Below, piece after piece: positions 8,849 to 44,596 of a stretch of DNA of 44,905 nt. Positions within the stretch are counted from its first letter, which is position 1; every line of letters begins with the position of its first letter. The notes under the pieces are model-generated. The model saw only the letters and a list, made by a program, of their open reading frames with translations, was not told the origin of the DNA and made no database searches. A program made the translations under genes and the position numbers. Source of the DNA: a virus; IMG/VR virus record IMGVR_UViG_3300017732_000015, positions 1 to 44,905 of that record; one strand, written 5' to 3'.

Positions 8849-10492
8849 TTAGACTTTATCAATATCTGCTATTCTTACTAATCCGTAGAACTCTGAACGA
8901 ACCATTTTCTTAGCGTAACGAGTCATCACACCTTTACGTGGAGTAAAGTTGGTTGGGTCGTATACTAATGGTGTCATAATCATCGGTACGTAAGGAGCGT
9001 ACACCGCGCCAGTTTCTAGGAAGTTACTTCCTCTGAAACCAACAAGAATTACGTTCTCAAACTGGTATGGGTTTTTGTAAACAGTATATCTGTTATTCAA
9101 AAGACCAGCTTTTTGAACACCCATAGCGTACTGGTTAGCTGATGCATCGCCGTCAGATGAAGTTGCATATCCAGGAATTGATTCCAAGATAGTTGCAGTT
9201 TCAGGACTTACAACGATGAAGTTAGCTCCACCACGTAGGGTTTTCTGGTGAATTGCGTTGGAAACAGACTGTATCTTGTTACCAAGAGTCTGGAACCACT
9301 CACCTTTTGTGTATGCATTTGAGTTTGCAGAAGTTTCTTCAAACAGGTTGGTAGCTGAGTTAAACTCAAATCCAACTTTTGCAGAATAGTTTTCTGTCTT
9401 AGCAGATGCGTTAGTTCTTAACATATCTAAGATTTCTAAATCGATTTCCATTGATACGTACTCAGAAAGTAATGCAGTTAATTCTGCTTCAGCATCAACA
9501 CTATGATAAGCGTTAAGGTCTTGAGCAAGCTCAGGAGTCCAAACAGCTTTCAATTTACGTGTTTTTGCAACTATTGGAATAGAACGCATTTGAATATCAA
9601 TCTCTGGTATTCCTGCGTCTGATTCTGCGCCAGTACCACTTGCAGTTGCTTCAAAGTCACCTCTTGTTGCGTCAGTTGGTTGCTTATGATAATCAACAAC
9701 GACGTTACCAACAAGTGTTTGAGCTCTGTCTTTCTTAACGATAAATGAGATTTCAGTCTCAGCAGCGTTTAATTTAGTATGTGCTGGGAAGAACTCATCA
9801 AAGTTTGAACCAGAAATGTTAAATGCTCTTATACCTTCAGGATCATATCCACTCAATGCTGCAGTTGCAACATTAATCTTCATTAATCCATTGTCAGCAT
9901 CAGCACCAGTTGATACAGATGCGGATAGGTCTGGTTCAAAATCAACATCAGAAAATGTTACTGAGCCAGTTGTATAAGTACCATCTGATACAGATGTTCC
10001 TTTTGATTGAGCTGATGATGCATTGTCATTTGCTGAGTAAGCGAAACGACCTGCGCCATATAATCCAGCAGTTGGGTCGCCAGAACCTGAAGTAATACCG
10101 AATACATCGTTACCACTTGTAAATCCAGCCTGTGCACTTCCATACTTGAAATCAAGATAGAAGATAAGACCAGATGGTAGGTTCATTGGCTGAACAGAAA
10201 CAAACTCTTGTGCGGCTAATTCACCAAAGATTTTTCTGACCAATGGTAAAGCAACGCCTGACCACTGTTCTGAATCACTATTGGTTCCTGCTTGAGATGC
10301 TTCGTCGATTAACTGACGTGCTTGGTTCTCAAGTAGAACTGCCATACCGTGAGTTTTCTGCTCATCTTGGAGTCCTTCTAAAAGGCCGGTGGCTTCCCAC
10401 TTTTTTACTAAGCCTTTAGTTTCCTCCATGCGCTGACGAACAGGATTGTATCCGTCCATCAACTTTTCGATAGTGCCTAATTTATTTGACAT
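8849..10492 (-). CDS. 23: Major capsid protein (gp23-like)
   Basis: This protein has 547 residues, close to T4 gp23 (521), and is predicted to adopt the HK97 fold. The N-terminus is a helical propeptide (MSNKLGTIEKLMDGYNPVRQ onward) ending in LIDE|ASQAG at residues 64/65. This is a prohead-protease site of the T4 [L/I]-x-E type at almost the same place as in T4 gp23 (residue 65). Further gp23-like blocks are SGLIFYLDFKYG (residues about 104-115), VVAKTRKLKAVWTPELAQDL, and near the end TPRKGVMTRYAKKMV. GGAGAA precedes the ATG. It lies downstream of the scaffold gene and ahead of a strong terminator, as expected for the most highly expressed late gene. Confidence 0.95.
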   Translation of the reverse strand: MSNKLGTIEKLMDGYNPVRQRMEETKGLVKKWEATGLLEGLQDEQKTHGMAVLLENQARQLIDEASQAGTNSDSEQWSGVALPLVRKIFGELAAQEFVSVQPMNLPSGLIFYLDFKYGSAQAGFTSGNDVFGITSGSGDPTAGLYGAGRFAYSANDNASSAQSKGTSVSDGTYTTGSVTFSDVDFEPDLSASVSTGADADNGLMKINVATAALSGYDPEGIRAFNISGSNFDEFFPAHTKLNAAETEISFIVKKDRAQTLVGNVVVDYHKQPTDATRGDFEATASGTGAESDAGIPEIDIQMRSIPIVAKTRKLKAVWTPELAQDLNAYHSVDAEAELTALLSEYVSMEIDLEILDMLRTNASAKTENYSAKVGFEFNSATNLFEETSANSNAYTKGEWFQTLGNKIQSVSNAIHQKTLRGGANFIVVSPETATILESIPGYATSSDGDASANQYAMGVQKAGLLNNRYTVYKNPYQFENVILVGFRGSNFLETGAVYAPYVPMIMTPLVYDPTNFTPRKGVMTRYAKKMVRSEFYGLVRIADIDKV

Positions 10493-12669: not shown

Positions 12670-13011
12670 TTACTTTCTAAGTTTTCCGCGTTTTGTGTAC
12701 CTACGAAATCCATCCCTTACCCTATTCCAAAGGGTTCTCATCAAATCTCTTTGACCTGTACCAGTATCTCTGACTGAGCCACTAACAATTGCTCTTTGTA
12801 AATCTAATGCGTCGTATCTTCCACCCTTAACACCATCCATCATAACCTTTATTGATTGTGCTGATGCTTTACCGATTATTTTTCCAATCTTTATCACGTC
12901 TTTTTCTACCATTTTTTGTGCTTCTATTGAGCTGAATGGTAATTGAGATGGTGAGCTTAGAGGAGCTTCATTTATTTCCATTAATCTTTTATAGGATGTT
13001 TTGTTTTTCAT
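12670..13011 (-). CDS. Small basic protein with capsid-targeting-like leader
   Basis: This 113-residue protein begins MKNKTSYKRLMEINE|APLSS, a basic leader ending in an INE|A site that matches the T4 prohead-protease consensus ([L/I]-x-E, then a small residue). The rest is helical and ends in a very basic tail (RRYTKRGKLRK), suited to contact DNA. It overlaps the upstream gene by one base in a row of similar small genes between protease and scaffold, the position where T4-like phages keep core and internal proteins. Inference: it is an internal head protein packaged with DNA. I see no similarity to a known enzyme. Confidence 0.6.
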   Translation of the reverse strand: MKNKTSYKRLMEINEAPLSSPSQLPFSSIEAQKMVEKDVIKIGKIIGKASAQSIKVMMDGVKGGRYDALDLQRAIVSGSVRDTGTGQRDLMRTLWNRVRDGFRRYTKRGKLRK

Positions 13012-13337
13012 TATTTGTTTCTCTTTAGCGCTGCTATAACATCATTTACTCTAAAATTATCTTTTTCAAGATAGTGTTTATCCTCAGGATTCTTGATAAT
13101 TTTTTTTATTTTATTAATCTGAGATGGTTTTAATTTTACTTTTTTCTGTTTTTTTAATATATTTTCTGATGATGTACCTCCACCCTTATAAAAGTCTTGT
13201 TTCAAATCAAAATCAACAACTTTCCACTTACCTTTTACAAAGTGTTTATCTATCACCAACTCTATCTCACCATTATTATCGTAAGCGCTTCCTACTTCTA
13301 CAGATTGTTCACTCAGTAAATCTTTTAACTTAATCAC
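13011..13337 (-). CDS. Small protein with MIKLK-type capsid-targeting-like leader
   Basis: This 108-residue protein (GTG start) begins MIKLKDLLSE|QSVEVG, followed by a beta-rich middle (NGEIELVIDKHFVKGKWKVV) and a basic lysine-rich C-terminus. The leader is nearly identical to those of the neighbouring genes although the rest of the protein is unrelated, which points to a transferable targeting signal with an LSE cleavage site. The start shares its G with the stop of the upstream gene (TAGTG), so translation is coupled. A function after injection or inside the head is inferred; the mature domain is not recognised. Confidence 0.6.
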   Translation of the reverse strand: MIKLKDLLSEQSVEVGSAYDNNGEIELVIDKHFVKGKWKVVDFDLKQDFYKGGGTSSENILKKQKKVKLKPSQINKIKKIIKNPEDKHYLEKDNFRVNDVIAALKRNK

Positions 13338-13630
13338 TAAAATGCTCCATGGATATCATTATAATTATCGTATGTTCTCTTAGCTAATTGGAAAAACTTC
13401 TTATCAACGTCATCTCTATACTTCATCAACCCTCTTGGCATACTTCCCTCTCTATCCGCAATCATTTTTATACCTTGATAAATGTTTTGATATTTGAGAT
13501 TGTTCATAGCTTTAGCTAATTCCATCCGTGCTCCATTATGGTCATTTCTATCGGTCATTTTAGCTATGTCATTTACGATAGATTTGGATAATTCTTTTTT
13601 TTCTGTTAGTATATTTTTTAATTTTATCAT
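13337..13630 (-). CDS. Small helical protein with MIKLK-type leader
   Basis: This 97-residue protein begins MIKLKNILTE|KKELSKS, with an LTE site after a ten-residue amphipathic leader. The mature part is helical (around DRNDHNGARMELAKAMNNLK and YRDDVDKKFFQLAKRTYDNY), without recognisable motifs. It starts 5 bases after the preceding stop and its own stop touches the next start. It shares the leader only with 13011-13337, 14444-14926, 14923-15207 and 43658-44596. It is probably an internal head protein. Confidence 0.6.
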   Translation of the reverse strand: MIKLKNILTEKKELSKSIVNDIAKMTDRNDHNGARMELAKAMNNLKYQNIYQGIKMIADREGSMPRGLMKYRDDVDKKFFQLAKRTYDNYNDIHGAF

Positions 13631-13634
13631 ATTC

Positions 13635-14444
13635 TTATCCGTAATACTTTAAAATTAATTGTTTCATTTTAGGTAACTGTAGAGCTCTAAATTTTTTCTG
13701 TAATCTTGGATTTTTATCATAGGCTTTATCTATCGTTACTATTAGGTTAGCGGTCTGTAAATCAATACCTTTTTCGTGTTGTTTATTTTTAAGAACCTTT
13801 TTAGCCACATCAACACCACTAACTTCATTTACGGATTCTTGTACGTACATAAATCCATCAACATTTTTAGGAAAATAATTTGTATCTAAGTTTTTCATTA
13901 GTTTACCCATCGCTACAGCAGCTGCTTGTCTTGAATCATAAGTTTTTATTTTCTTTACTTTTTTACCTCTTTTATCAGTTGTGTAAAGTGTATATCCTTT
14001 TTGCATAGCTTTACTTATTTTTCTTCCAGCACCTTTAGGAAAGATTTCATCTACGGATTCTGCGGGATTCATGATGTAATCACGAGACTTACCAACGTAA
14101 TCTTTAGCTAATGTAATCTTATCAGTCCACCAACTTGGTAATGAATCTTCGTTAGACATACCACGAAGTGCGTTTATAGTATCCATAGCATCTTTTATAA
14201 TCAGTTTGAGTTTTCTCTCAGCTGATGCTACGTCTGTGTGTCCATCTTCATTCATGTTTTCACTCCTAACTTTATTAGGTAAATCATCGTGTTTTGTAGA
14301 AGCAAACTTTTTAGTTGACTTCTTCTTCATTGATTTAGCCGCGTCCTTAACTGCTTGTGTGACTTGACTCGCTGGAACCTCACCCTTTTTGTAAGCGTGA
14401 ACCAATCCCATAAATCTTTGTTGTGCTTTAGATACTGAGGGCAC
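13635..14444 (-). CDS. DUF3008-like protein with fused C-terminal helical domains
   Basis: This 269-residue protein starts at a GTG that overlaps the upstream TAG (TAGTG). Residues 1-60 (PSVSKAQQRFMGLVHAYKKG ... STKHDDLP) match the small phage family often labelled DUF3008, which normally stands alone at about 60-70 residues. Here it is followed by a helical part (about 70-130), a basic segment (AGRKISKAMQKGYTLYTTDK, then RQAAAVAMGKLMKN) and a C-terminal helical domain. Possible maturation-protease sites, MNE|D and VNE|V, fall in the linkers, so the chain may be cut into pieces in the prohead. The function is unknown; context says head interior. Confidence 0.6.
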   Translation of the reverse strand: MPSVSKAQQRFMGLVHAYKKGEVPASQVTQAVKDAAKSMKKKSTKKFASTKHDDLPNKVRSENMNEDGHTDVASAERKLKLIIKDAMDTINALRGMSNEDSLPSWWTDKITLAKDYVGKSRDYIMNPAESVDEIFPKGAGRKISKAMQKGYTLYTTDKRGKKVKKIKTYDSRQAAAVAMGKLMKNLDTNYFPKNVDGFMYVQESVNEVSGVDVAKKVLKNKQHEKGIDLQTANLIVTIDKAYDKNPRLQKKFRALQLPKMKQLILKYYG

Positions 14445-14926
14445 TATTCTTCTTCTTGTTTATCAGCTATCTTAATACTATCTTTTCTGTTTATGATTTC
14501 CATCAAATGTAGTTTTATAAAGTTTGTATCTCTTTCAAAGTCATCATTAATCATACCACCGATACGACCTAACTGATAAGAAACTATATTTACAATCTCC
14601 ACTCCATGGTCGATTGGGTCGTGGTCAATCTCTTCACCCTTAACGACTTGTTTTTCCATTTCGAATAGGTGGTCAAGTTGTTTAGCAGAACTAATAATTA
14701 AATCTTGTGCGTCGGTGTTATCGACATCTTTTACTAATCTTTCGTAAAGAATAACTGCTGAACGACATATATCAAAATGTTCTGTTTGATAATCTAAAAT
14801 TTTTATGTTTTCACCACCACCGAAATGTTCTGGTTCATCTTGTTCCAATCTTAGTGTTGGTAATGCTTCACCAAACTTACGACCAGTCCAATAATTTTCA
14901 TTCATTATATTTTTTAACTTAATCAT
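14444..14926 (-). CDS. Helical protein with MIKLK-type leader
   Basis: This 160-residue protein begins MIKLKNIMNE|NYWTGRKFGE; MNE would be the cleavage site. The mature part is acidic and mostly helical (around EHFDICRSAVILYERLVKDV and AQDLIISSAKQLDHLFEMEK) and ends in a run of Glu. It shares ATGA with the stop of the upstream gene (overlap of 4 bases). No catalytic motif was recognised. The row of genes with the same leader and different bodies suggests a set of packaged internal proteins. Confidence 0.6.
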   Translation of the reverse strand: MIKLKNIMNENYWTGRKFGEALPTLRLEQDEPEHFGGGENIKILDYQTEHFDICRSAVILYERLVKDVDNTDAQDLIISSAKQLDHLFEMEKQVVKGEEIDHDPIDHGVEIVNIVSYQLGRIGGMINDDFERDTNFIKLHLMEIINRKDSIKIADKQEEE

Positions 14927-15207
14927 TTTAGTTTCTTTCTAAGTTTAATCATCTCTCTCATAAATTTAGTAACTGTATCTTTATATGTCTTTGTTAATTG
15001 TTTAGCTAATTTTACGTTTTCAGGTCGTGCATCTCTTAAGAACACTTGCTCTAATGCAAACATTCTTTTACGAAGTTCACCCTCTCTTTTTACGATACGT
15101 TGAACTTCTTTATCAGCAGGTCTCTGTTCATCAGGCCCTTCTGTTATAGAGCAGCATCCTCCACCACATTCACATCCATCTTTCATTAACTCTTTTAACT
15201 TAATCAT
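14923..15207 (-). CDS. Small protein with Cys-rich MIKLK-type leader
   Basis: This 94-residue protein (start chosen at the ATG at 15207, which overlaps the upstream TAA as ATGATTAA) begins MIKLKELMKDGCECGGGCCS, then ITE|GPDEQR. The C-x-C-GGG-CC cluster lies inside the presumed propeptide, before the ITE|G site at residues 23/24. If cut there, the metal-binding or disulphide-forming part would be removed on maturation. The remainder is a charged helical body ending RKKLK. An in-frame GTG/ATG further upstream is possible but would run into the upstream gene. It is likely an internal head protein. Confidence 0.6.
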   Translation of the reverse strand: MIKLKELMKDGCECGGGCCSITEGPDEQRPADKEVQRIVKREGELRKRMFALEQVFLRDARPENVKLAKQLTKTYKDTVTKFMREMIKLRKKLK

Positions 15208-15484
15208 CAGTATTCTTTCTTTTGAAGTCCGCAAATTTTACTTTCAATTCTATCAAGTTTCTTTTGTATATTTTTTGTAATTCTAATACTTCTTTTTTGT
15301 AATCACCATCTTTGTCTCTTGCTAAATCTTTGATAAGAGTTTTCATATTTCTTTCAACTCTCTCCATAGCTTTTTCAATGGTGTCGAAGTAATTTTTGTA
15401 TCCAGCAAAGCCCATTGGAATTTTTTCTTCTTCAAGTCTCCAATCTCTCCACTTTTTCCATATTTTTATTGATTCTTGTGACAT
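15200..15484 (-). CDS. Small charged helical protein, unknown
   Basis: This 94-residue protein is probably all helical with coiled-coil character (MSQESIKIWKKWRDWRLEEE, then YFDTIEKAMERVERNMKTLI, then YKKEVLELQKIYKRNLIELK). No leader of the MIKLK type and no catalytic motif. It follows the prohead protease gene directly (stop at 15485) and overlaps the next gene by 8 bases. Its position between protease and internal proteins suggests a head-core component. Confidence 0.55.
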   Translation of the reverse strand: MSQESIKIWKKWRDWRLEEEKIPMGFAGYKNYFDTIEKAMERVERNMKTLIKDLARDKDGDYKKEVLELQKIYKRNLIELKVKFADFKRKNTDD

Positions 15485-16102
15485 CTAACCTCTCATTATA
15501 TCGTTAATAATTGATTCTACTTTACAATATTCACCACAAGTTCTACCAGATGGTATTTCTTTATTTACCGACTCGTTTACAGGATACATAAAAGCTCCAT
15601 GTGTTGACGGATTGGATACAAAGTCAAAAGCGATTAATTCAAAGTCGGGTTGAACTTCTTGTGCTTCTGAACCATTCTCATTTACAGTCTCAACTGAACC
15701 CATACCCCTTGAGGATATACCTAACTTAATACCTGATTTAAATAATTCTTTTAAAATATTACCACTTGGTGTACCTAAAACCTCAACTTCACCCATAAGG
15801 TTGTCACCCTCAAAGTGCATCTTCTTTACATTGTGAGATACATTTTGTAGATTTACAACCGAAGACTCTGGATGGTCTAATTCACCCATAGCTCTTCTTT
15901 GGTCTATAAATTCTTCAGTATATTTTTTAGCTTCTCTCATCAATATATCTTTTGGGTATACTCTACCATTCTGATTTTTTGATTCAGCTCTTTGTAAAAC
16001 ACCTCTAACCACTAATTTACCATTGTTTTCTTTTATGGATTCATTAATCTGGTCTGGTTCTATTTCAAATGGTAGATAATCTACTATTAGTTGCTTATTC
16101 AC
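15485..16102 (-). CDS. 21: Prohead core protease (gp21-like)
   Basis: This 205-residue protein is close to T4 gp21 (212). It carries the family signature: a RAMGELDHPES block with the catalytic His (residues about 94-104), LMGEVEVLGTPSGNILKEL, then GIKLGISSRGMGS with the nucleophilic Ser, and LIAFDFVSNPSTHGA. This serine protease (U9/S80 type) matures T4 proheads by cutting scaffold, capsid protein and internal proteins after [L/I]-x-E. Its presence gives meaning to the many such sites in neighbouring proteins. It also contains INE|S and VNE|S that could be self-cleavage sites. It lies 11 bases after the preceding gene, in the conserved portal-protease-scaffold-capsid order. Confidence 0.93.
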   Translation of the reverse strand: MNKQLIVDYLPFEIEPDQINESIKENNGKLVVRGVLQRAESKNQNGRVYPKDILMREAKKYTEEFIDQRRAMGELDHPESSVVNLQNVSHNVKKMHFEGDNLMGEVEVLGTPSGNILKELFKSGIKLGISSRGMGSVETVNENGSEAQEVQPDFELIAFDFVSNPSTHGAFMYPVNESVNKEIPSGRTCGEYCKVESIINDIMRG

Positions 16103-21852: not shown

Positions 21853-24800
21853 CTAAAAATTTAATAATCCTAATATTTGATTAACAGGTGCAAAAGCGCC
21901 TGTAAACTTATATGTATTTCCTTTATATTTAAACACTATTCCCTCAGTAGGAACTATTGATGATAGTCCGCCAATCTTTTCTAACTTACTGAGTTGATGT
22001 CTAAGTGTTTCAATTTTTTTGATATCACCACCACTCTTTACTGTCTTTATCGCTTTTATTACATCTTTTCTTATTTTCTGTACTGCTTTGTCTGGCGATG
22101 CAACTAAATATCCACTAATGTTTTTTAGTATTTCTGCACCCACGTCAAAAAATAAAACTTCAAATGGTTTCATGTTTTGCTTTACATACTTTGCGTGGTC
22201 TGTTTTATCGAATGATAATGCCCAATCAAGAAACTTTTTATTGTCTATATCTTTTCTCATTGTTTGAACAGAATATGATTTATCAATAAATGCCCATCTT
22301 TTTGTTAAATTTACTAATATAGTATTAGGTATCTTATAACGATATTGTTTTGCAGCGTTAAAAATAAATTCTTCCCAAAATCTTTGATGATAAAGTGCTA
22401 ATGTATCATTATCTTTTAGGGCATATTGTTTTTTTAATTTATCTAACCTAGCTAAATAAGTTTTTTTCTTTGTACCAAAGTTTTGTGTTTTTGGTACTGA
22501 TAAGAATTGTGGTTTGCCTATTTTAAAATGCTTTTGAATATTTTGATTTACCTGTTTTATCATACCTGCTAACATACGAGCAGAATCTTTAGGTTGCCCT
22601 ATTGCTTTACCACTTTCATTGTACTCTAAAGTCCCATGAAAAATAATTTGTGATTTATCATAATCTATTACGTTAGCCGAAGCAGGATATATAACTTCTA
22701 AGTTCATCCATCTTTTACCATTACTAAAAACTTTTTCTTTTTGTGGGTCGGATAATTTACCTACTGCTTTACTTAGGTCTTTCATAGCGAAAACAAAAGC
22801 GTTTCTTATGTCACCTCTACCAGCGAATTTAGATGCTACACCAGCCGTATCCATCGCTGTTGCTCCAAAATTTTTAAGTTGTCCTTTGTTTCTAGCTGTA
22901 ACCAATTTCCCATTTACCCAAGAAACCATTAGGTTTTGACCATCAAGTTTCTCTGTAACATTATCTTCTCGGCTTAAATTACCACCGAGTCCATTAATAA
23001 CTATCTGTTTTAAATCTGAAAACTTAAGATTTTTATCATCAAAGGGATGATTCATATGTCCGTATGCTCCACCCTCAATGATTAACTTGACTTCTTCTTT
23101 TAAATCTAACTTATCAACTTCGGTATTAGCAACATTATCTTTACCAACACCACCAACAACTGGTGTTTCTACTTCGACACCTGTATATGATTTTCCGTCA
23201 GGTGTTATTCCCATCCACTTTATTAATTCATATCCAAGATTGCTTAATACCACATCGTTTATGTAAGCCTTATACGAGTCTATCGGACTATTAACACCAA
23301 ACCTTGAACCATAATCACCTGATTGGGTTTTACCATAAGCTACTGCTGGTACAGTTGAATAACTAAGTGTATAATCGTAATCAGGATTAATTGCATGTTT
23401 TGATAAAATATAATTTATCACTTCCCACCCTTGACCTGCGTACATATCATCCAACCATGATTTAGAATATTTTTTGTAATCTGAGAAACCACGATAAAAT
23501 GTAGGTGGCCCATCATCGGTTGGTGATAAAGCACTTGAAGAAGCTTCTTTTAATATTTTTGATATTTTATGACCTACCAAAAAAGCATCTATATTTTCAA
23601 ATAATTTTTTAAACTTATTTGTCATCATATTATAGATACCCTTGTCAAAGTATCCAAAAGCTTGTTTAAATAATTTTTCTCTATCTTTTTCATAATCTGG
23701 TGAACCAAGTAACTGTCTCATCACAGTTCCACTTATTTCCTTACCACCCACTTTAATAGATACGTGAGGAGCTGTGAGAATATAACCGTGTTCTTTATAT
23801 CCTAATATATTACCTCTGTTCTTATCATAATCTTTAAAATACTTTCCACCCTTTAACCTACCCGCGTCTTTAGCACCAAATATGTAGATAACAGCTGTTG
23901 TTTTCTCGTCATACTTTTTTAATACATTGTTAGCTACATAAGGTGACTTTTCTTGTATGATACGATTTTTTGGTATACCCATCTTTACCATATGACGAAC
24001 TTTTTCTTTAAAGTTCATAGGATGTCTTGGTGGTTGTTTTATATTTGATGTAGTGATGTAAGCATCATCTACTCTTGACTTCAACCAATCATAGGTTTTT
24101 TTATGATGAGGGCCAAATGGTTGAAATCTACCACCATAGATACCAACTACTTTTTTGATTTTAGTTCTGTCCTCTTTTATTTTTTCATAACCACTACCAT
24201 AAGGAACTGAAGTGTTCCCTTTCTTCTTCATCTTTTTTACCATTTTTCTACTTGGTGATGGGATTGTTCCGTCAAAACTAAAAGTCTCTGTTTTACCCGT
24301 ATCGGTTTTAAGAAAAGGGCCTCTTCTAAGTGTTTGAAATCTCACAGGTACTTCTTGACCAAATAATTTTCTTGGTGCTAAAATTCTTAGTGTAACCAAT
24401 TTTTTAGGATTATCAACTTTAATAGTTTCAAACTCTATCTCTTTATACTTTTTACCCTTATGTGTGAGATTCTTACCAGTAATGAATTTTTCTATCTTGT
24501 TACCTCTAACTGCAAAAGCTTCTGAAAGACCTTGCTGTTTTAATATTTGTTGTTTTTTAATCCAACTCTTTGCTATTTTATTTTTAATTGGTTGTTTTGT
24601 AAACTTACTAACGCCTTTTTTAACAAGTGAAGCAAACTTTTTCTGAGCTACATTTGGTTTTAAAAACTTAGAATTATCCACAATAAGAAAATTTGATTTA
24701 AATAAATTCTGAAACTTACCGAGATTAGCTTGAACACCTTTCCAACTCTTTTCTAATAAATCTGGTGGTAATATTCTATCTCGTTCTTGATTACGTTGTT

Positions 24801-25734
24801 GTGCTACATCGAGAGAGGTATTAACAAATACCATATAGGTATCGTAACCATCTTCTTGTAATTCTCTTTTCATCTTAGCTATCTTACCATAATCATGACC
24901 CGTTCCATCAATAATCATACCTAACTTACCATCTTGATACAACTTCATTCTTTGTTTAGTAAGTGATTTGGCATAATCTCTTAAACCACTCTGACCTTTA
25001 GATGTTAAATCTTTAAACAACTCATCTGGCATCTTATCTAAATCTGTACCGAATCCGTATTTGTTCAGAAGAAACTTTAACTCTTTATCTGAGTTTATCA
25101 TCTTCATACCACTCATAGAAATGTTTAATCGCTCAGGTATACCAAATAAATTTTTAGCTACATAAGTCTTACCACTACCTGGCCCACCAGCAAGAAATAC
25201 AGCTTTGAATATACCAGGATCGTTAACACCCTCGTTTATATTTTCTTCTTGTTTTAGTATTCTGAATGTTGTAACCTTTTTACCATTAATAGTTGGCATT
25301 CCGTGGTCATCTTTATCGATTGATTTGACTACAACCTTTTTATTTTTAAACCTACCAGTAAGAATAGTATCACCTATTTTTACAGGTATGTTAATATCCT
25401 CATTCTTCTTTTTAGTTTTCTTTTTCATCTGATTGATGTATTTACGATACACGGCGGCTTGTGACTTTTTACCCATCTCACGAGCACGTTGTTCCATAGC
25501 TACTGCAGCTTGTATCTTATGCGCGTGGGAACGACCACTCGACTTAATTTTACTTACCGACGCTTGCGCATCTTTTACGGTAGCAAACTTAAGACCCTTG
25601 ATGGTTCCTTTTGGGTTTTCATCCGTGTATAAATCTGAATGAGATTTGGAGCCACGATGTTGTCCTTTTTTTCTTGGGACTCTTGGTGCCTCGGTCAGTA
25701 TTGATTCTACTAACCATTTTGTAAGTTTATTCAT
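21853..25734 (-). CDS. Multi-enzyme polyprotein: leader, kinase, nucleotidylyltransferase, unknown domain, ligase
   Basis: The protein has 1293 residues. The leader MNKLTKWLVE|SILTE|AP has two prohead-protease-type sites. Residues 176-355 form a P-loop kinase of zeta-toxin/polynucleotide-kinase type: GGPGSGKT (183-190), IIDGTG (274-279) and QRNQERDR (313-320). Residues about 528-690 form a cytidylyltransferase-like domain: GIYGGRFQPFGPHH (531-544, the HxGH-type motif) and ISGTVMR (667-673, the ISSTxxR-type motif), compatible with NMN- or related adenylyltransferases. Residues about 737-850 are an unrecognised domain. Residues 888-1293 are a covalent nucleotidyltransferase (RNA/DNA ligase): EKLDGQN with Lys929, LEVIYP (1012-1017), EGIVFKYKG (1264-1272) and KFTG. 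Sites INE168|G, LSE405|A, LKE730|A and IIE887|G fall between domains. It lies ahead of terminase in the head operon. Substrates are unknown. Confidence 0.85.
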   Translation of the reverse strand: MNKLTKWLVESILTEAPRVPRKKGQHRGSKSHSDLYTDENPKGTIKGLKFATVKDAQASVSKIKSSGRSHAHKIQAAVAMEQRAREMGKKSQAAVYRKYINQMKKKTKKKNEDINIPVKIGDTILTGRFKNKKVVVKSIDKDDHGMPTINGKKVTTFRILKQEENINEGVNDPGIFKAVFLAGGPGSGKTYVAKNLFGIPERLNISMSGMKMINSDKELKFLLNKYGFGTDLDKMPDELFKDLTSKGQSGLRDYAKSLTKQRMKLYQDGKLGMIIDGTGHDYGKIAKMKRELQEDGYDTYMVFVNTSLDVAQQRNQERDRILPPDLLEKSWKGVQANLGKFQNLFKSNFLIVDNSKFLKPNVAQKKFASLVKKGVSKFTKQPIKNKIAKSWIKKQQILKQQGLSEAFAVRGNKIEKFITGKNLTHKGKKYKEIEFETIKVDNPKKLVTLRILAPRKLFGQEVPVRFQTLRRGPFLKTDTGKTETFSFDGTIPSPSRKMVKKMKKKGNTSVPYGSGYEKIKEDRTKIKKVVGIYGGRFQPFGPHHKKTYDWLKSRVDDAYITTSNIKQPPRHPMNFKEKVRHMVKMGIPKNRIIQEKSPYVANNVLKKYDEKTTAVIYIFGAKDAGRLKGGKYFKDYDKNRGNILGYKEHGYILTAPHVSIKVGGKEISGTVMRQLLGSPDYEKDREKLFKQAFGYFDKGIYNMMTNKFKKLFENIDAFLVGHKISKILKEASSSALSPTDDGPPTFYRGFSDYKKYSKSWLDDMYAGQGWEVINYILSKHAINPDYDYTLSYSTVPAVAYGKTQSGDYGSRFGVNSPIDSYKAYINDVVLSNLGYELIKWMGITPDGKSYTGVEVETPVVGGVGKDNVANTEVDKLDLKEEVKLIIEGGAYGHMNHPFDDKNLKFSDLKQIVINGLGGNLSREDNVTEKLDGQNLMVSWVNGKLVTARNKGQLKNFGATAMDTAGVASKFAGRGDIRNAFVFAMKDLSKAVGKLSDPQKEKVFSNGKRWMNLEVIYPASANVIDYDKSQIIFHGTLEYNESGKAIGQPKDSARMLAGMIKQVNQNIQKHFKIGKPQFLSVPKTQNFGTKKKTYLARLDKLKKQYALKDNDTLALYHQRFWEEFIFNAAKQYRYKIPNTILVNLTKRWAFIDKSYSVQTMRKDIDNKKFLDWALSFDKTDHAKYVKQNMKPFEVLFFDVGAEILKNISGYLVASPDKAVQKIRKDVIKAIKTVKSGGDIKKIETLRHQLSKLEKIGGLSSIVPTEGIVFKYKGNTYKFTGAFAPVNQILGLLNF

Positions 25735-39930: not shown

Positions 39931-40803
39931 TTACAATTTATTTTTCAACTTAGCATACTCACGTCTACCCCACTTTTCGGCAATCTCCTCAAACTTGTTA
40001 TCATCGTGAAAATCACCACCTTTTTGGACGGCAATCTCACCTGCCATGGAGTATGCTTTTTCGTATTTTTTTGCACCCATCTTTTTTCTATCAAGAGCAT
40101 GTTTGATTTCATGTAATACTGTAATTAAAAATTGTTTGACTGTAGGATATGATGGTCTTAAATTTATCGTATCGGTAACCCAATTATAATCCGCCATGTC
40201 TTTACCACGTGCAAATTTTATTTTAGATTTGAGTCCATATTTTTTAACTAATCTTTCTGCTGTATCCAAGTAGTCTATTCTTTCTAATAGTAAATAACCT
40301 GTAGTGTCTGTGATTGATTTTTTAAGCGATTTTAGTTTAGATGGCCACTCTTCTGGTTTGATAAAACCTGTTGCACCCTTTAGTCCTTTTATATTTGCAG
40401 TTGTAGAGGCTTCATATAAATTATCTAATATTCCTAATACTCTATCGTCAAATGGTTGTGGAAGATTCATTGTGTTATAATAACCCCAAGCCATATGTTC
40501 ATGATTTATATGTGCATTTATTTTTTTATCACCCTTGCATATAAAAACGTGAAAGTCTCCACCATTGTTCTTCTTAGCAACATGGGATAATTCAATATCA
40601 CGATTTAGTATAATTTGGGTTTCTTCAGTAAACTCTCTATGAGCTCCTTCTTCAGGTGTTTCATCAATATGTCGATGACCCTTTGGGATACCCCATCTAC
40701 CACTCGTACTTTGAACACACAATAACTCGTCATTCACAACGTAGGCAATACCTGCTGCGTGTTTGGAATCTTTTTGTTCGTTTATTTGTGCTAATTTAAT
40801 CAT
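39931..40803 (-). CDS. Nudix hydrolase fused to HExxH metallopeptidase, with capsid-targeting-like leader
   Basis: The start at 40803 is chosen because ATGATTAA overlaps the upstream stop; a GTG four codons earlier is less likely. The 290-residue protein begins MIKLAQINE|QKDS, a leader with an INE site. The Nudix box is G-x5-E-x7-REFTEETQ (residues about 42-64; the final Gly of the consensus is Gln). A second site, LYE|A (129-132), separates it from a peptidase-like half with VLHEIKHALD (HEIKH, 231-235) and a downstream EIAEKW that may hold the third ligand. Nudix enzymes cleave X-linked nucleoside diphosphates (ADP-ribose, Ap4A, RNA caps). A packaged, maturation-cut two-enzyme protein is the inference. 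Confidence 0.8.
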   Translation of the reverse strand: MIKLAQINEQKDSKHAAGIAYVVNDELLCVQSTSGRWGIPKGHRHIDETPEEGAHREFTEETQIILNRDIELSHVAKKNNGGDFHVFICKGDKKINAHINHEHMAWGYYNTMNLPQPFDDRVLGILDNLYEASTTANIKGLKGATGFIKPEEWPSKLKSLKKSITDTTGYLLLERIDYLDTAERLVKKYGLKSKIKFARGKDMADYNWVTDTINLRPSYPTVKQFLITVLHEIKHALDRKKMGAKKYEKAYSMAGEIAVQKGGDFHDDNKFEEIAEKWGRREYAKLKNKL

Positions 40804-41017
40804 TACAATGCTCACAAGTACAGGTACTTAAATCACTAGGTAACTCTGTCCTTGTGATGTCTTCTCCGTTACTATATTTGAAAGTCATATTACTTGAGTT
40901 AGCCCATTTAGGTTTAACAATAATATCTTCTATTGTTAAATCTTCAATGTGACATTTACAAGTGTTACAAACTTTTGATATTTGTTGACCACTGCTAGTG
41001 AATCTAACTTTTATCAT
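40796..41017 (-). CDS. Small Cys-rich, probably zinc-binding protein
   Basis: This 73-residue protein (start at 41017, MIKVRFTSSGQQISK; GGTAAA upstream and the stop of the prior gene 1 base away) has VCNTCKCHIEDL and, at the end, STCTCEHCND, giving two C-x2-C pairs with extra Cys that could form one or two zinc sites. It overlaps the Nudix/peptidase gene by 8 bases. No family was recognised; a rubredoxin- or zinc-ribbon-like fold is possible. Confidence 0.6.
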   Translation of the reverse strand: MIKVRFTSSGQQISKVCNTCKCHIEDLTIEDIIVKPKWANSSNMTFKYSNGEDITRTELPSDLSTCTCEHCND

Positions 41018-41018
41018 T

Positions 41019-41444
41019 TTACCAAGTTCTACAAGCCCAATATCTCGCCTTATACTTTGGGCCTGGATTATCACAATTGTGTCTTGCTCTGAACGATTTA
41101 CGAGCTTTTGGATTTGATTTACGTATTCTCATCGTACCACCCTTGGCATCACCACCTTGTCCAAAGTTTACTTTCACGACATTACCTTTATCGTTTTTAA
41201 CGTAAACTTTAAATTTCTTAGCATCACCTTGCATTATTTTATTGAGCTTAACTTTACGACCTTGGTATTCAGCCTCTTCCATTGGTTGTTTTTCAAACTC
41301 GAAAGTGTATCCACAACTTTCATTTTGATTTTCCCAATAGATATCGTAAACTTCTTTAACACAATTAGGCACCATCTTACCATTCTTTTCTTTCATGCCT
41401 ATCTGTTGATATCCAACCCAACAAGTTCCTCGTTTTTCGTTCAT
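41019..41444 (-). CDS. Conserved marine-phage protein with Arg/Cys-rich C-terminus
   Basis: The 141-residue protein starts at the ATG at 41444 (MNEKRGTCWVGYQQIG) with AAGG upstream; a TTG six codons earlier lies inside the preceding gene. The sequence has a C-x-VGY-x2-IGMKEK-x-GK-x-VPNC block, a middle AEYQGRKVKLNKIMQGDAKK, and a strongly conserved-looking end, KARKSFRARHNCDNPGPKYK then ARYWACRTW. I recognise this end from many marine myoviruses, where the protein is unannotated or called scaffold/capsid-associated. The function is unknown; four paired Cys suggest metal binding. Confidence 0.65.
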   Translation of the reverse strand: MNEKRGTCWVGYQQIGMKEKNGKMVPNCVKEVYDIYWENQNESCGYTFEFEKQPMEEAEYQGRKVKLNKIMQGDAKKFKVYVKNDKGNVVKVNFGQGGDAKGGTMRIRKSNPKARKSFRARHNCDNPGPKYKARYWACRTW

Positions 41445-41446
41445 GC

Positions 41447-41662
41447 TTAACCTTTTTTCCAACCACCACCAGCGGCTTTGTATTGTTTAGCTGCCCAAGC
41501 GTTTGCGTAAGCTGATGGATATACATCAAACTTCTTTTTAGCTTGAGATTTATAGTAAGACCATTTTGATGGATTTGTTGGAACATTCTTTTCAAAGAAC
41601 ATCTCAAACTTTTCCTCTATAAAAGCCTCTTTTACTATTTGTTTTAGTTCATCAACTTTCAT
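41447..41662 (-). CDS. Small conserved marine-phage protein (KSQAKKKFDVYPSAYANAWA type)
   Basis: This 71-residue protein has a helical N-terminus (MKVDELKQIVKEAFIEEKFE) and then NPSKWSYYKSQAKKKFDVYP, SAYANAWAAKQYKAAGGGW, a block very frequent in marine phages and without known function. Its ATG is preceded only by a weak AGAG, and the frame is open upstream: it continues without a stop through 41663-41863, so it could also be the C-terminal part of a longer protein whose N-terminal part is interrupted by a TGA. Both readings are possible; a separate gene is favoured by the natural-looking start. Confidence 0.65.
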   Translation of the reverse strand: MKVDELKQIVKEAFIEEKFEMFFEKNVPTNPSKWSYYKSQAKKKFDVYPSAYANAWAAKQYKAAGGGWKKG

Positions 41663-41899
41663 TTTTTTTCTCTTTTTTCTTGGATGTGAGTGTGACGACT
41701 CATCAGTTGGATTAAGTCTACTTACACTTACATTTTTGTAAAGTTTATTACCGAATTGTATATCTACAATTTCAACTTTACCATCTTCACTTAATGAGTG
41801 CCAAGTTACTTTACCGACACCCTCATTTTTTCGCTTAGGAGACCCCCAAGTCGCGTGATGGAATCATTGATGTTGAACTGATTTATTATAAGTATCCAT
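41663..41899 (-). pseudogene. Conserved small gene broken by in-frame TGA, open into the next gene
   Basis: An ATG at 41899 with AGG seven bases upstream opens MDTYNKSVQHQ, then a TGA (41864-41866), then the same frame continues FHHATWGSPKRKNEGVGKVT, WHSLSEDGKVEIVDIQFGNK and LYKNVSVSRLNPTDE, ending in a lysine-rich stretch that runs directly into the Met of 41447-41662 without a stop. The segment after the TGA has coding character (small beta-barrel/KOW-like pattern with GKVTWHS and VDIQFG) and no in-frame start of its own. The TGA would be Trp or Arg by a single change. Since other genes here end with TGA, a nonsense mutation or assembly error is more likely than recoding. Confidence 0.65.
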
Positions 41900-41907
41900 A
41901 TTATTAC

Positions 41908-42072
41908 CTATTTTCGTTTTTTTCTTCCTGCACAATGTGCTTTTTGACTAAAACCTTTTGGGTTGTTACAATCAATACTTTTCTTATATTTTTGACTCCA
42001 CTTTTTTTCTTTAACAACTTCATATAAGTGAAGACAGCCACAATCAAATTTTTCTACGAGATATCTATGCAC
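41908..42072 (-). CDS. Tiny basic Cys-containing protein
   Basis: This 54-residue protein starts at a GTG overlapping the upstream TAG (GTGCATAG). It reads VHRYLVEKFDCGCLHLYEVV, then KEKKWSQKYKKSIDCNNPKG and FSQKAHCAGRKKRK. The DCNNPKGFSQKAHCAGRKKR end is a block I recognise from marine phage small proteins of unknown role. Four Cys (C-x-C and two more) suggest a zinc knuckle, and the basic tail suggests nucleic-acid binding. Confidence 0.65.
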   Translation of the reverse strand: MHRYLVEKFDCGCLHLYEVVKEKKWSQKYKKSIDCNNPKGFSQKAHCAGRKKRK

Positions 42073-42427
42073 CTGTTTTTACCTTGATGGTCTTTTGCCC
42101 TTTACTTCTTTCACCACCTTTTTTGGGGTCACCACCTTTTTTCTGTGCTTTTCTTTTTCTATTGACAAATGCTGCGATTCCCTTTTTACCAAGTTTTCTA
42201 GCCTTTGACTTTGATAGACAGGCTGCATACGCTCCACCCTCTTCACCATCACCACATTTTCCTAGTTTTTTACCAGTAGAGGAATACCTATCCCAACCTC
42301 CACCGCCAGAACCACCTGCACCACCTTTACCAAACCACTTTCGTAGGTCTTCATTTGTGTAAGTTCCACAGAAGATACACTTATTATCTTCTATAAGTTC
42401 CAATACCTGTTTTGTTTTTTGATTCAT
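42065..42427 (-). CDS. Small Gly/Lys-rich conserved marine-phage protein
   Basis: This 120-residue protein has an N-terminal IEDNKCIFCGTYTNED with a C-x2-C pair, a glycine-rich linker (GKGGAGGSGGGGW), then DRYSSTGKKLGKCGDGEEGG, AYAACLSKSKARKLGKKGIA and AFVNRKRKAQKKGG, ending in a basic tail. The GAYAACLSKSKARKLGK block recurs in many marine phages as an uncharacterised small basic protein. It overlaps both neighbours. It is a candidate internal or DNA-binding protein; the function is unknown. Confidence 0.65.
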   Translation of the reverse strand: MNQKTKQVLELIEDNKCIFCGTYTNEDLRKWFGKGGAGGSGGGGWDRYSSTGKKLGKCGDGEEGGAYAACLSKSKARKLGKKGIAAFVNRKRKAQKKGGDPKKGGERSKGQKTIKVKTGA

Positions 42428-43657: not shown

Positions 43658-44596
43658 TTAACCCTTGTGAATTTTACCTTTTCGTTCTTTGAACCATTTT
43701 CTAAACTGAGCAGGTGAACCGATAGTAATTGGTTTGTTACCACTTGCTGTTGATAATAATTTTTCTATTTCAACTTTAGCCAATACACTATTATCCAATA
43801 CTCTTTGCATTACAAATATATCTATTATCTTTGTATCATAAACAAGAAGTTCATTCCACCAAGCAGTTCTTTTATTATGTTTAGAATTAATCAAACTCTT
43901 CTTGAATAGTTTTTTATTTTTAAGTAAAGTTTTGTTTGCTACATCAATATAATCTTTTACATATTTGTTAATGACTGGCCCTTGTGCTTTTTTAACTTGC
44001 TCTTTATAGTCATCATAACTAATCCTATTAGGGTCATCACTTGGTAACATCCATCTGTCGTGATATTCTCTCTCTATATCGGTCATTTTATCACTAATAC
44101 TATCATAATCAAGTTTAGAAGATTTTAAAGCATTTGTCCATATCATACTATCCTTATCAAACACATGCCAAGCCTTTACCCATCTACGACCTTGTTTATC
44201 AGGTGTTGTATCAAAATCCATAGACCTTTTTGCTAATAAATGTCCCTCTACATAACAAATAATACCACCCATACCTGTTTGAACACCACGACCTTTAGCT
44301 AATGATTCATCTTCGTGAGTTGCTGTAAATGTAGATATAGTTTTTTTTCTATTGAGAACATATTTAAGTTGTCGTATTCCATCTGGTCCTGTAATGTGAA
44401 ATGATTTTACAGGTATTTTTTTACCAAGAGCTTTCTCCACAACCGATGGTGTTAGAGGAATCACATCTCTTTGACGAACCCAATTCAATACGGATTTTGT
44501 GTGAGCGGGATACCACTTATTATCTATCCAACTAGGCCCAGCTTGTTTAGATGGTGCATAAGTGGATTCCATTAATAAATCTTTAAGTTTAATCAT
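43658..44596 (-). CDS. Leader-bearing 312-aa protein, possible injected effector
   Basis: The protein begins MIKLKDLLME|STYAPSKQ, the same leader type as the head-operon proteins about 30 kb away, with an LME|S site. The mature part has VKSFHITGPDGIRQLKYVLN, then KKTISTFTATHEDE, GGIICYVEGHLLAKRSMDFD and GRRWVKAWHVFD, followed by helical parts. An early His, a [S/T]-rich strand and a later Glu loosely recall ADP-ribosyltransferases, as in T4 Alt, which is also packaged and cut, but I cannot assign the fold. It starts within the stop of the upstream CsgG-like gene (ATGA). Unknown function; packaging is inferred. Confidence 0.6.
   Translation of the reverse strand: MIKLKDLLMESTYAPSKQAGPSWIDNKWYPAHTKSVLNWVRQRDVIPLTPSVVEKALGKKIPVKSFHITGPDGIRQLKYVLNRKKTISTFTATHEDESLAKGRGVQTGMGGIICYVEGHLLAKRSMDFDTTPDKQGRRWVKAWHVFDKDSMIWTNALKSSKLDYDSISDKMTDIEREYHDRWMLPSDDPNRISYDDYKEQVKKAQGPVINKYVKDYIDVANKTLLKNKKLFKKSLINSKHNKRTAWWNELLVYDTKIIDIFVMQRVLDNSVLAKVEIEKLLSTASGNKPITIGSPAQFRKWFKERKGKIHKG

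Follow-up and report, generated by a model that had tools for sequence, protein, structure and literature searches.

The precursor gene and its surroundings

The DNA analyzed here (the window) is a fragment of 44,905 nucleotides (44.9 kb) from a T4-like myovirus and is filed as virus record IMGVR_UViG_3300017732_000015. Its terminase is closest, among isolates, to those of Microcystis phage Mel-JY01 (56%) and Flavobacterium phage immuto (54%). A gene on the minus strand (39931 to 40803, with an ATG at 40803 and its end at 39931) encodes a protein of 290 amino acids, and its start overlaps the stop codon of the upstream gene (ATGATTAA). A GTG four codons upstream could also serve as the start but is the less likely choice. 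The frame is also present in contigs L002 to L009 at 68% to 100% identity. We confirmed the frame and the motifs that an earlier note on this DNA had described: the first residues MIKLAQINE↓QKDSK, the tripeptide and bond L129-Y130-E131↓A132, and HEIKH at residues 231 to 235 (arrows mark predicted cleavage positions). The homologues used throughout are the best 80 of 168 from one scan, together with those from smaller scans; all are metagenomic contigs, and many are incomplete.

The overlapping upstream gene (40796 to 41017, minus strand) encodes a small Cys-rich protein that shares ATGATTAA with the precursor gene, and relatives of this protein are found directly upstream in L005, L006, and L008. 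Several small, very basic proteins of unknown function containing Gly, Lys, and Cys are encoded between the precursor gene and 42427 (41019 to 42427, minus strand).

The N-terminal half is a Nudix hydrolase module

Residues 10 to 131 (40411 to 40776, minus strand) match Pfam NUDIX (PF00293) with an E value of 5.2e-10 and a score of 39.9 bits, compared with a Pfam cut-off of 21.1, and VIA-align of the module to Nudix structures gave a Z score of about 10. The Nudix box, G42x5E48x7R56E57F58xE60E61xQ63I64 (40612 to 40680, minus strand), follows the consensus Gx5Ex7REUxEExGU with every metal-ligand glutamate present. Its sole deviation is the late glycine, which is glutamine in the precursor and Q or S across the set. 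G42, E48, R56, E57, F58, E60, E61, and I64 are invariant in nine Nudix relatives. Similarity to T4 NudE is confined to the region around the Nudix box (32% over 66 amino acids).

All NCBIfam equivalog models scored far below their cut-offs for this module. Fold matches were also set aside as a guide to the substrate, since Ap4A hydrolase, Dcp2, RenU, NudB, and CoA pyrophosphatase tie at Z scores of 9 to 10. The nearest phage matches come from Burkholderia phages BcepNY3, Bcep43, Bcep781, and Bcep1, mostly from genes annotated as portal protein; a portal-annotated gene is a known way of packaging a Nudix domain.

The C-terminal half is predicted to be a zincin-fold metallopeptidase

Residues 175 to 290 (39934 to 40281, minus strand) were modeled by AlphaFold2 (AF2) as a zincin-fold metallopeptidase with a pLDDT of 91.5 and a pTM of 0.85. 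The HEIKH zinc-binding motif (residues 231 to 235; 40099 to 40113, minus strand) is invariant in all 25 aligned domains at H231, E232, and H235, including the 39%-identical homologue in L122. E272 (39988 to 39990, minus strand), which forms E272-xxx-E276 in the last helix, is likewise invariant (25/25), and it is the predicted third zinc ligand on the basis of this invariance and of the gluzincin-type fold neighbors. The best PDB neighbors of the model are abylysin and jannalysin (both minigluzincins), IrrE/PprI, SPRTN, ERAP1, and ArdC, all zinc peptidases with a glutamate as the third ligand. PprI aligned with a Z score of 8.3 (rmsd 3.8, 98 residues aligned), and ArdC with a Z score of 7.3 (rmsd 3.0, 88 residues aligned). 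The module thus resembles the gluzincin-type peptidases (IrrE/PprI, minigluzincins, and SPRTN), with HExxH and a downstream glutamate in a zincin fold, and is predicted to bind metal. The earlier note had made its peptidase assignment depend on the HEIKH helix lying in a metal site, and the confident AF2 model places it in a fold of that type.

The predicted order of elements, H-E-E-E-H-H-H, agrees with that of MPTase-PolyVal (PF18818; a helix, three strands, the HExxH helix, and a later helix with the glutamate), HEIKH being in the first helix after the strands. Weak matches to this Pfam family were obtained for 14/14 members of the peptidase family (best E value, 5.8e-5). We did not file the peptidase there, since the members with scores shown reached 18 to 21 bits against a cut-off of 27.5. 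A profile of the peptidase retrieved only chance ribosomal L27 matches from the PDB sequences. No relative was detected in 50,697 phage records, Mel-JY01 included, or in plasmids, and one scan of bacterial and archaeal genomes matched only two metagenome-assembled genome (MAG) contigs.

Two conserved junctions separate the modules

The first predicted internal cleavage site, LYE↓A, occupies residues 129 to 132 (40408 to 40419, minus strand). The earlier note had placed it exactly between the two halves of the protein; the residues are as given, but the site lies at the end of the Nudix domain and is followed by a further segment of 43 amino acids. This middle segment (residues 132 to 174; 40282 to 40410, minus strand) begins TTANIKGLKGATGFIKPEEW and has a pI of 9.5. 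In five distinct proteins with the order Nudix, middle segment, and peptidase, site 1 reads LYE↓AS, LYE↓AS, IDE↓AS, LSE↓GS, and ISE↓AS, that is, [LI]xE↓[AG]S in 5/5. In L010 the middle segment opens its own gene with the leader MIKLKDIVE↓GSVTGNIKG, and in L069 a PAP2 phosphatase precedes the same segment with the junction ISE↓GSPTGNIKG. Site 1 is therefore kept in three unrelated upstream contexts: after a Nudix domain, after PAP2, and at a gene start. Conservation of the LYE↓A linker, on which the earlier note had staked its proposal, thus extends from the five Nudix relatives to a PAP2 fusion and to a true leader site. A divergent middle segment in L038 carries the leader MIKLKNILGE↓ISNADN, and the segment is absent in L029.

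The second predicted internal site, LLLE↓R (E174↓R175; residues 171 to 175; 40279 to 40293, minus strand), coincides with the start of the folded peptidase. E↓R was found at this position in 117/117 open frames with the peptidase, duplicates included. A non-redundant set of 42 peptidase sequences (under 90% identity) has E at P1 in 42/42 and L, I, or V at P3 in 42/42 (L in 39); positions P5 to P12 carry less than 1.7 bits. The codons vary synonymously, with both GAA and GAG at P1 and all six Leu codons at P3. The distant homologue in L122 keeps a leader and the glutamate (MLIREFISE↓T) with T rather than R at P1', which argues that the glutamate belongs to the site and not to the fold.

In the full-length AF2 model, pLDDT is below 50 for residues 112 to 152 and 161 to 175 and above 90 from about residue 181, so both internal sites fall in predicted linkers. 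Only this local confidence was used; the domain arrangement in the full-length model is meaningless (pTM 0.46), and its Nudix part is only moderate.

The number of [LI]xE motifs was dropped as evidence of cleavage. At the rate observed across 17 non-cargo proteins of the window, 0.0118 per residue (one in about 85), chance alone would give about 3.4 motifs in the 290-residue precursor; six are present, three of them inside enzyme cores. As judged by sequence comparison, the above-chance signal is conservation together with equivalence to the N-terminal leader sites of homologues, with the motif alone no more than chance. The E174↓R175 site is stronger than LYE↓A and, with the middle segment and the fusion history described below, constitutes the strongest evidence. 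The layout in the earlier note had included LYE↓A and had missed all three of these.

The modules have been fused or separated repeatedly

The peptidase stands alone in 20 of the 42 non-redundant relatives, preceded by a leader that ends at the E↓R point, and is fused to unrelated modules in the other 22. Among the upstream fusion partners are Nudix with or without the middle segment, a PAP2 phosphatase, an EPDTGF module, a GDTILTGRF module, an EYIS...VEKYLDR module, and an HD-domain protein. L010 and L016 keep Nudix and peptidase in two genes, arranged in the same order, and each of the two genes has a MIKLK...E leader. When stand-alone or fused state was mapped onto a maximum-likelihood tree of the peptidase, parsimony required at least 11 changes, 6 of which are forced by well-supported branches.

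The cut site is present in all 42. The targeting part of the leader, in contrast, is recognizable in 17/20 stand-alone peptidases vs 5/22 fused ones (Fisher P = 6e-5, uncorrected for kinship). Some fusions have kept a whole leader internally: L038 has IIKLKDLLFE↓R, L069 has MIKLKPLLE↓R, and L010 has MLKLKPLLE↓R. If the first leader carries the whole chain into the head and the inner sites must still be cut, the inner targeting parts would be expected to decay and the cut sites to be kept, as is seen here in many separate events.

Other modules show the same alternation. Before the EPDTGF module, some genes have the leader IME↓V and others an internal VVTE↓S or VE↓S; the GDTILTGRF module has either the leader ILNE↓K or an internal LSE↓A. 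In L006 (6013 to 7209, plus strand), four modules are joined, the Nudix-middle-peptidase chain running via VVTE↓S into EPDTGF.

Elsewhere in the window, a gene at 21853 to 25734 (minus strand) encodes a 1,293-amino-acid protein with regions resembling a zeta-toxin/AAA_33-type kinase, a cytidylyltransferase (NMN adenylyltransferase-like), and a ligase. Its ligase-like region follows IIIE↓GG, and Mel-JY01 has IIAE↓GG, which supports a cut there. The GDTILTGRF module also occurs in this protein, at about residue 112, after KKKNE↓D; Lys occupies the usual position of the P3 Leu, and the site has possibly decayed.

A capsid-targeting-like leader and the head genes

Residues 1 to 9, MIKLAQINE↓Q (40777 to 40803, minus strand), resemble a capsid-targeting leader. 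T4 targeting requires no residues beyond the first ten, and cleavage by gp21 follows L/I-x-E (PMC9026906). All relatives have an equivalent of this short N-terminal leader ending in (L/I)xE, among them MIKLQHINE, MIKLKQIIE, MIKLKHLLE, MIKLKHILE, and MIKLKQIYE. MIKLK also starts five other genes of the window, each with an acidic residue at position 10; in the T4 record, the leaders of ipII and ipIII have E at this position. An aspartate at leader position 10 in T4 prevents processing and leaves targeting intact. Four of the five (13011, 13337, 14444, and 14923) lie in the head cluster, between the scaffold and prohead-protease genes (12670 to 15484). The fifth, at 43658 to 44596 (minus strand), encodes a 312-amino-acid protein without a Pfam match that starts MIKLKDLLME↓S and is a further cargo candidate.

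The predicted cutter is an S77 prohead protease of the T4 gp21 type (15485 to 16102, minus strand; Pfam Peptidase_S77, E value 4e-28), encoded in the same genome as the precursor. Close to its N-terminus, the protease itself has an INE↓S. A point against this assignment is that an S77 gene turned up on only 8 of the 20 contigs tested from relatives, though most of these are fragments and 4 of the 5 contigs over 90 kb have it. The major capsid protein gp23 (8849 to 10492, minus strand; Pfam Gp23, E value 8.8e-79) carries LIDE↓A near residues 60 to 70, and the two nearest isolates have IVSE↓A and LISE↓A in the same place. These gp23 sites support use of [LI]xE by the prohead protease in the lineage of the window.

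In Flavobacterium phage immuto (L119), many genes between 2239 and 25629 have other leader types (MKKSQLRxIIxKE, MENFDLKKFLVE). A 907-amino-acid protein of the same phage, annotated NadR, has two HExxH-like motifs near its C-terminus.

Discussion

We consider it probable that this gene encodes the precursor of a two-enzyme head-cargo polyprotein, whose leader would direct its packaging and which the S77 prohead protease would cleave. The observations beneath this reading are the open frame and its domains, conservation of the sites, their equivalents in separate genes, repeated fusion or separation, and the presence of the protease gene; we infer packaging, the cleavage itself, ejection, and the enzyme activities. 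MIKLAQINE would act like the 10-residue capsid-targeting sequence of T4 and direct the chain into the prohead core, and the protease would then cut after E9, E131, and E174. The products would be a 13.9-kDa Nudix enzyme (pI 5.8), a basic middle peptide of 43 residues (4.6 kDa), and a basic 13.6-kDa zinc peptidase. The released enzymes may be ejected with the DNA and act without delay inside the host. The internal sites would be former N-terminal leaders of once-separate genes; since only the first leader is needed for targeting after a fusion, the inner leaders would have decayed while their cut sites were kept. The earlier proposal of a cut-apart, packaged Nudix-peptidase precursor has held on both points that it staked, linker conservation and the metal-site fold, with virion packaging, cleavage, and substrates still at the level of prediction. 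Very tentatively, the Nudix enzyme might remove caps or signals of the ADP-ribose, dinucleotide, or NAD type, and a host protein might be the target of the peptidase.

One feature of the junctions runs counter to cleavage by S77: P1' is occupied by R, Q, or N, whereas the bond described for T4 is E-A. The peptidase domain itself, with its nearly invariant P1' Arg, may also account for some of the conservation at the junction. Self-cleavage is the main rival on the question of who cuts. Release by embedded zincin peptidases has been proposed for polyvalent proteins (PMC5512222), and here every relative has a junction immediately N-terminal to the peptidase. However, the same [LI]xE junctions occur where the peptidase is absent: in the leaders of many small genes, in gp23, and at the IIxE↓GG ligase junction shared by the 1,293-residue protein and Mel-JY01, a phage in which no peptidase relative was found among the 50,697 records. 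Stand-alone peptidases, moreover, have the same leader as other cargo. Self-cleavage therefore explains less than S77 does, and we regard cutting by the embedded peptidase as improbable.

We think it equally improbable that the protein is an ordinary two-domain enzyme that is never cut, with the junction conserved as a structural or functional linker. The near-invariance of E-R and of D at P3', next to the first helix, would suit such a linker, as would the fact that in several lineages the two enzymes have stayed in a single chain. This account fits poorly with junctions in predicted disorder, with the distant L122 homologue that keeps E and loses R, and with the same E terminating the leaders of stand-alone genes; [LI]xE stays while the upstream partners change completely. 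It is slightly less improbable, though still unlikely, that the protein is an early intracellular enzyme rather than head cargo, its MIKL leader being a common start or serving another targeting purpose. The gene does lie outside the head cluster, beside PDDEXK nuclease, primase, and SbcCD genes. Against this, the same leader is found on several genes between scaffold and prohead protease, and the length of the leader and its E at position 9 or 10 match the leaders of T4 internal proteins.

The proposed cut-apart head cargo has parts in common with several known systems. T4 IPI to IPIII and Alt, which are cut by gp21 (PMC9026906, PMC3012670), share the leader of about 10 residues ending in (L/I)xE, the S77 protease, and small basic or enzymatic cargo, and nudE lies two genes from ipIII in the T4 genome. 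Unlike the precursor described here, with two enzymes, a middle peptide, and two internal sites, T4 cargo is described as having one product per gene and a terminal propeptide. Polyvalent proteins with MPTase (Iyer et al. 2017, PMC5512222) share fusions of disparate enzymes, a zincin peptidase, and modular shuffling, and the chains described here likewise join at least two disparate domains in one polypeptide (Nudix and peptidase, and up to four modules in L006). Delivery into the host with the DNA, another polyvalent-protein trait, is suggested here by the leader. Polyvalent proteins differ in that release is ascribed to the embedded peptidase, whereas here it is predicted at leader-derived prohead-protease sites, and the Pfam MPTase-PolyVal cut-off is not reached. 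Virion-packaged phage Nudix domains (portal/MuF fusions, PMC9503650; Bcep781-type portals) are similarly predicted to be packaged and early-acting, but they are described as fused to structural proteins or standing alone, in contrast to a detachable cargo module. In the head maturation of the giant phages phiKZ and SPN3US, an S77-type protease cleaves several internal proteins after glutamate, some of them at more than one site; however, 13 of 14 sites remove N-terminal propeptides, the other being the protease's own, and no release of two enzymes is reported (PMC10052503). The precursor is best read as a variation on T4 capsid-targeted cargo in which two enzymes in one cut chain are the new part. 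We found no description of a phage multi-enzyme polyprotein cut by a prohead protease in the open-licence literature, which is weak evidence of novelty.

With somewhat less confidence than we attach to the precursor itself, we favor a broader reading in which a marine T4-like phage lineage fuses leader-tagged genes, so that inner leaders become prohead-protease sites and enzyme cassettes are swapped under one tag and freed in the prohead. The swappable cassettes would include Nudix, the zinc peptidase, PAP2 phosphatase, and others. If this is true, these chains would be a phage counterpart of the polyproteins of eukaryotic viruses, with the capsid maturation protease as the cutter. They would also add a second possible release route beside embedded metallopeptidases, the capsid protease being the better candidate here. 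The pattern provides a testable evolutionary rule for the assembly of injected multi-enzyme payloads: targeting parts decay, whereas cut sites persist. Where a leader at a gene start in one phage corresponds to an internal [LI]xE in another, the pair may, in turn, serve as a signature by which the cargo of virions and its cleavage sites can be recognized in metagenomes without the need for proteomics.
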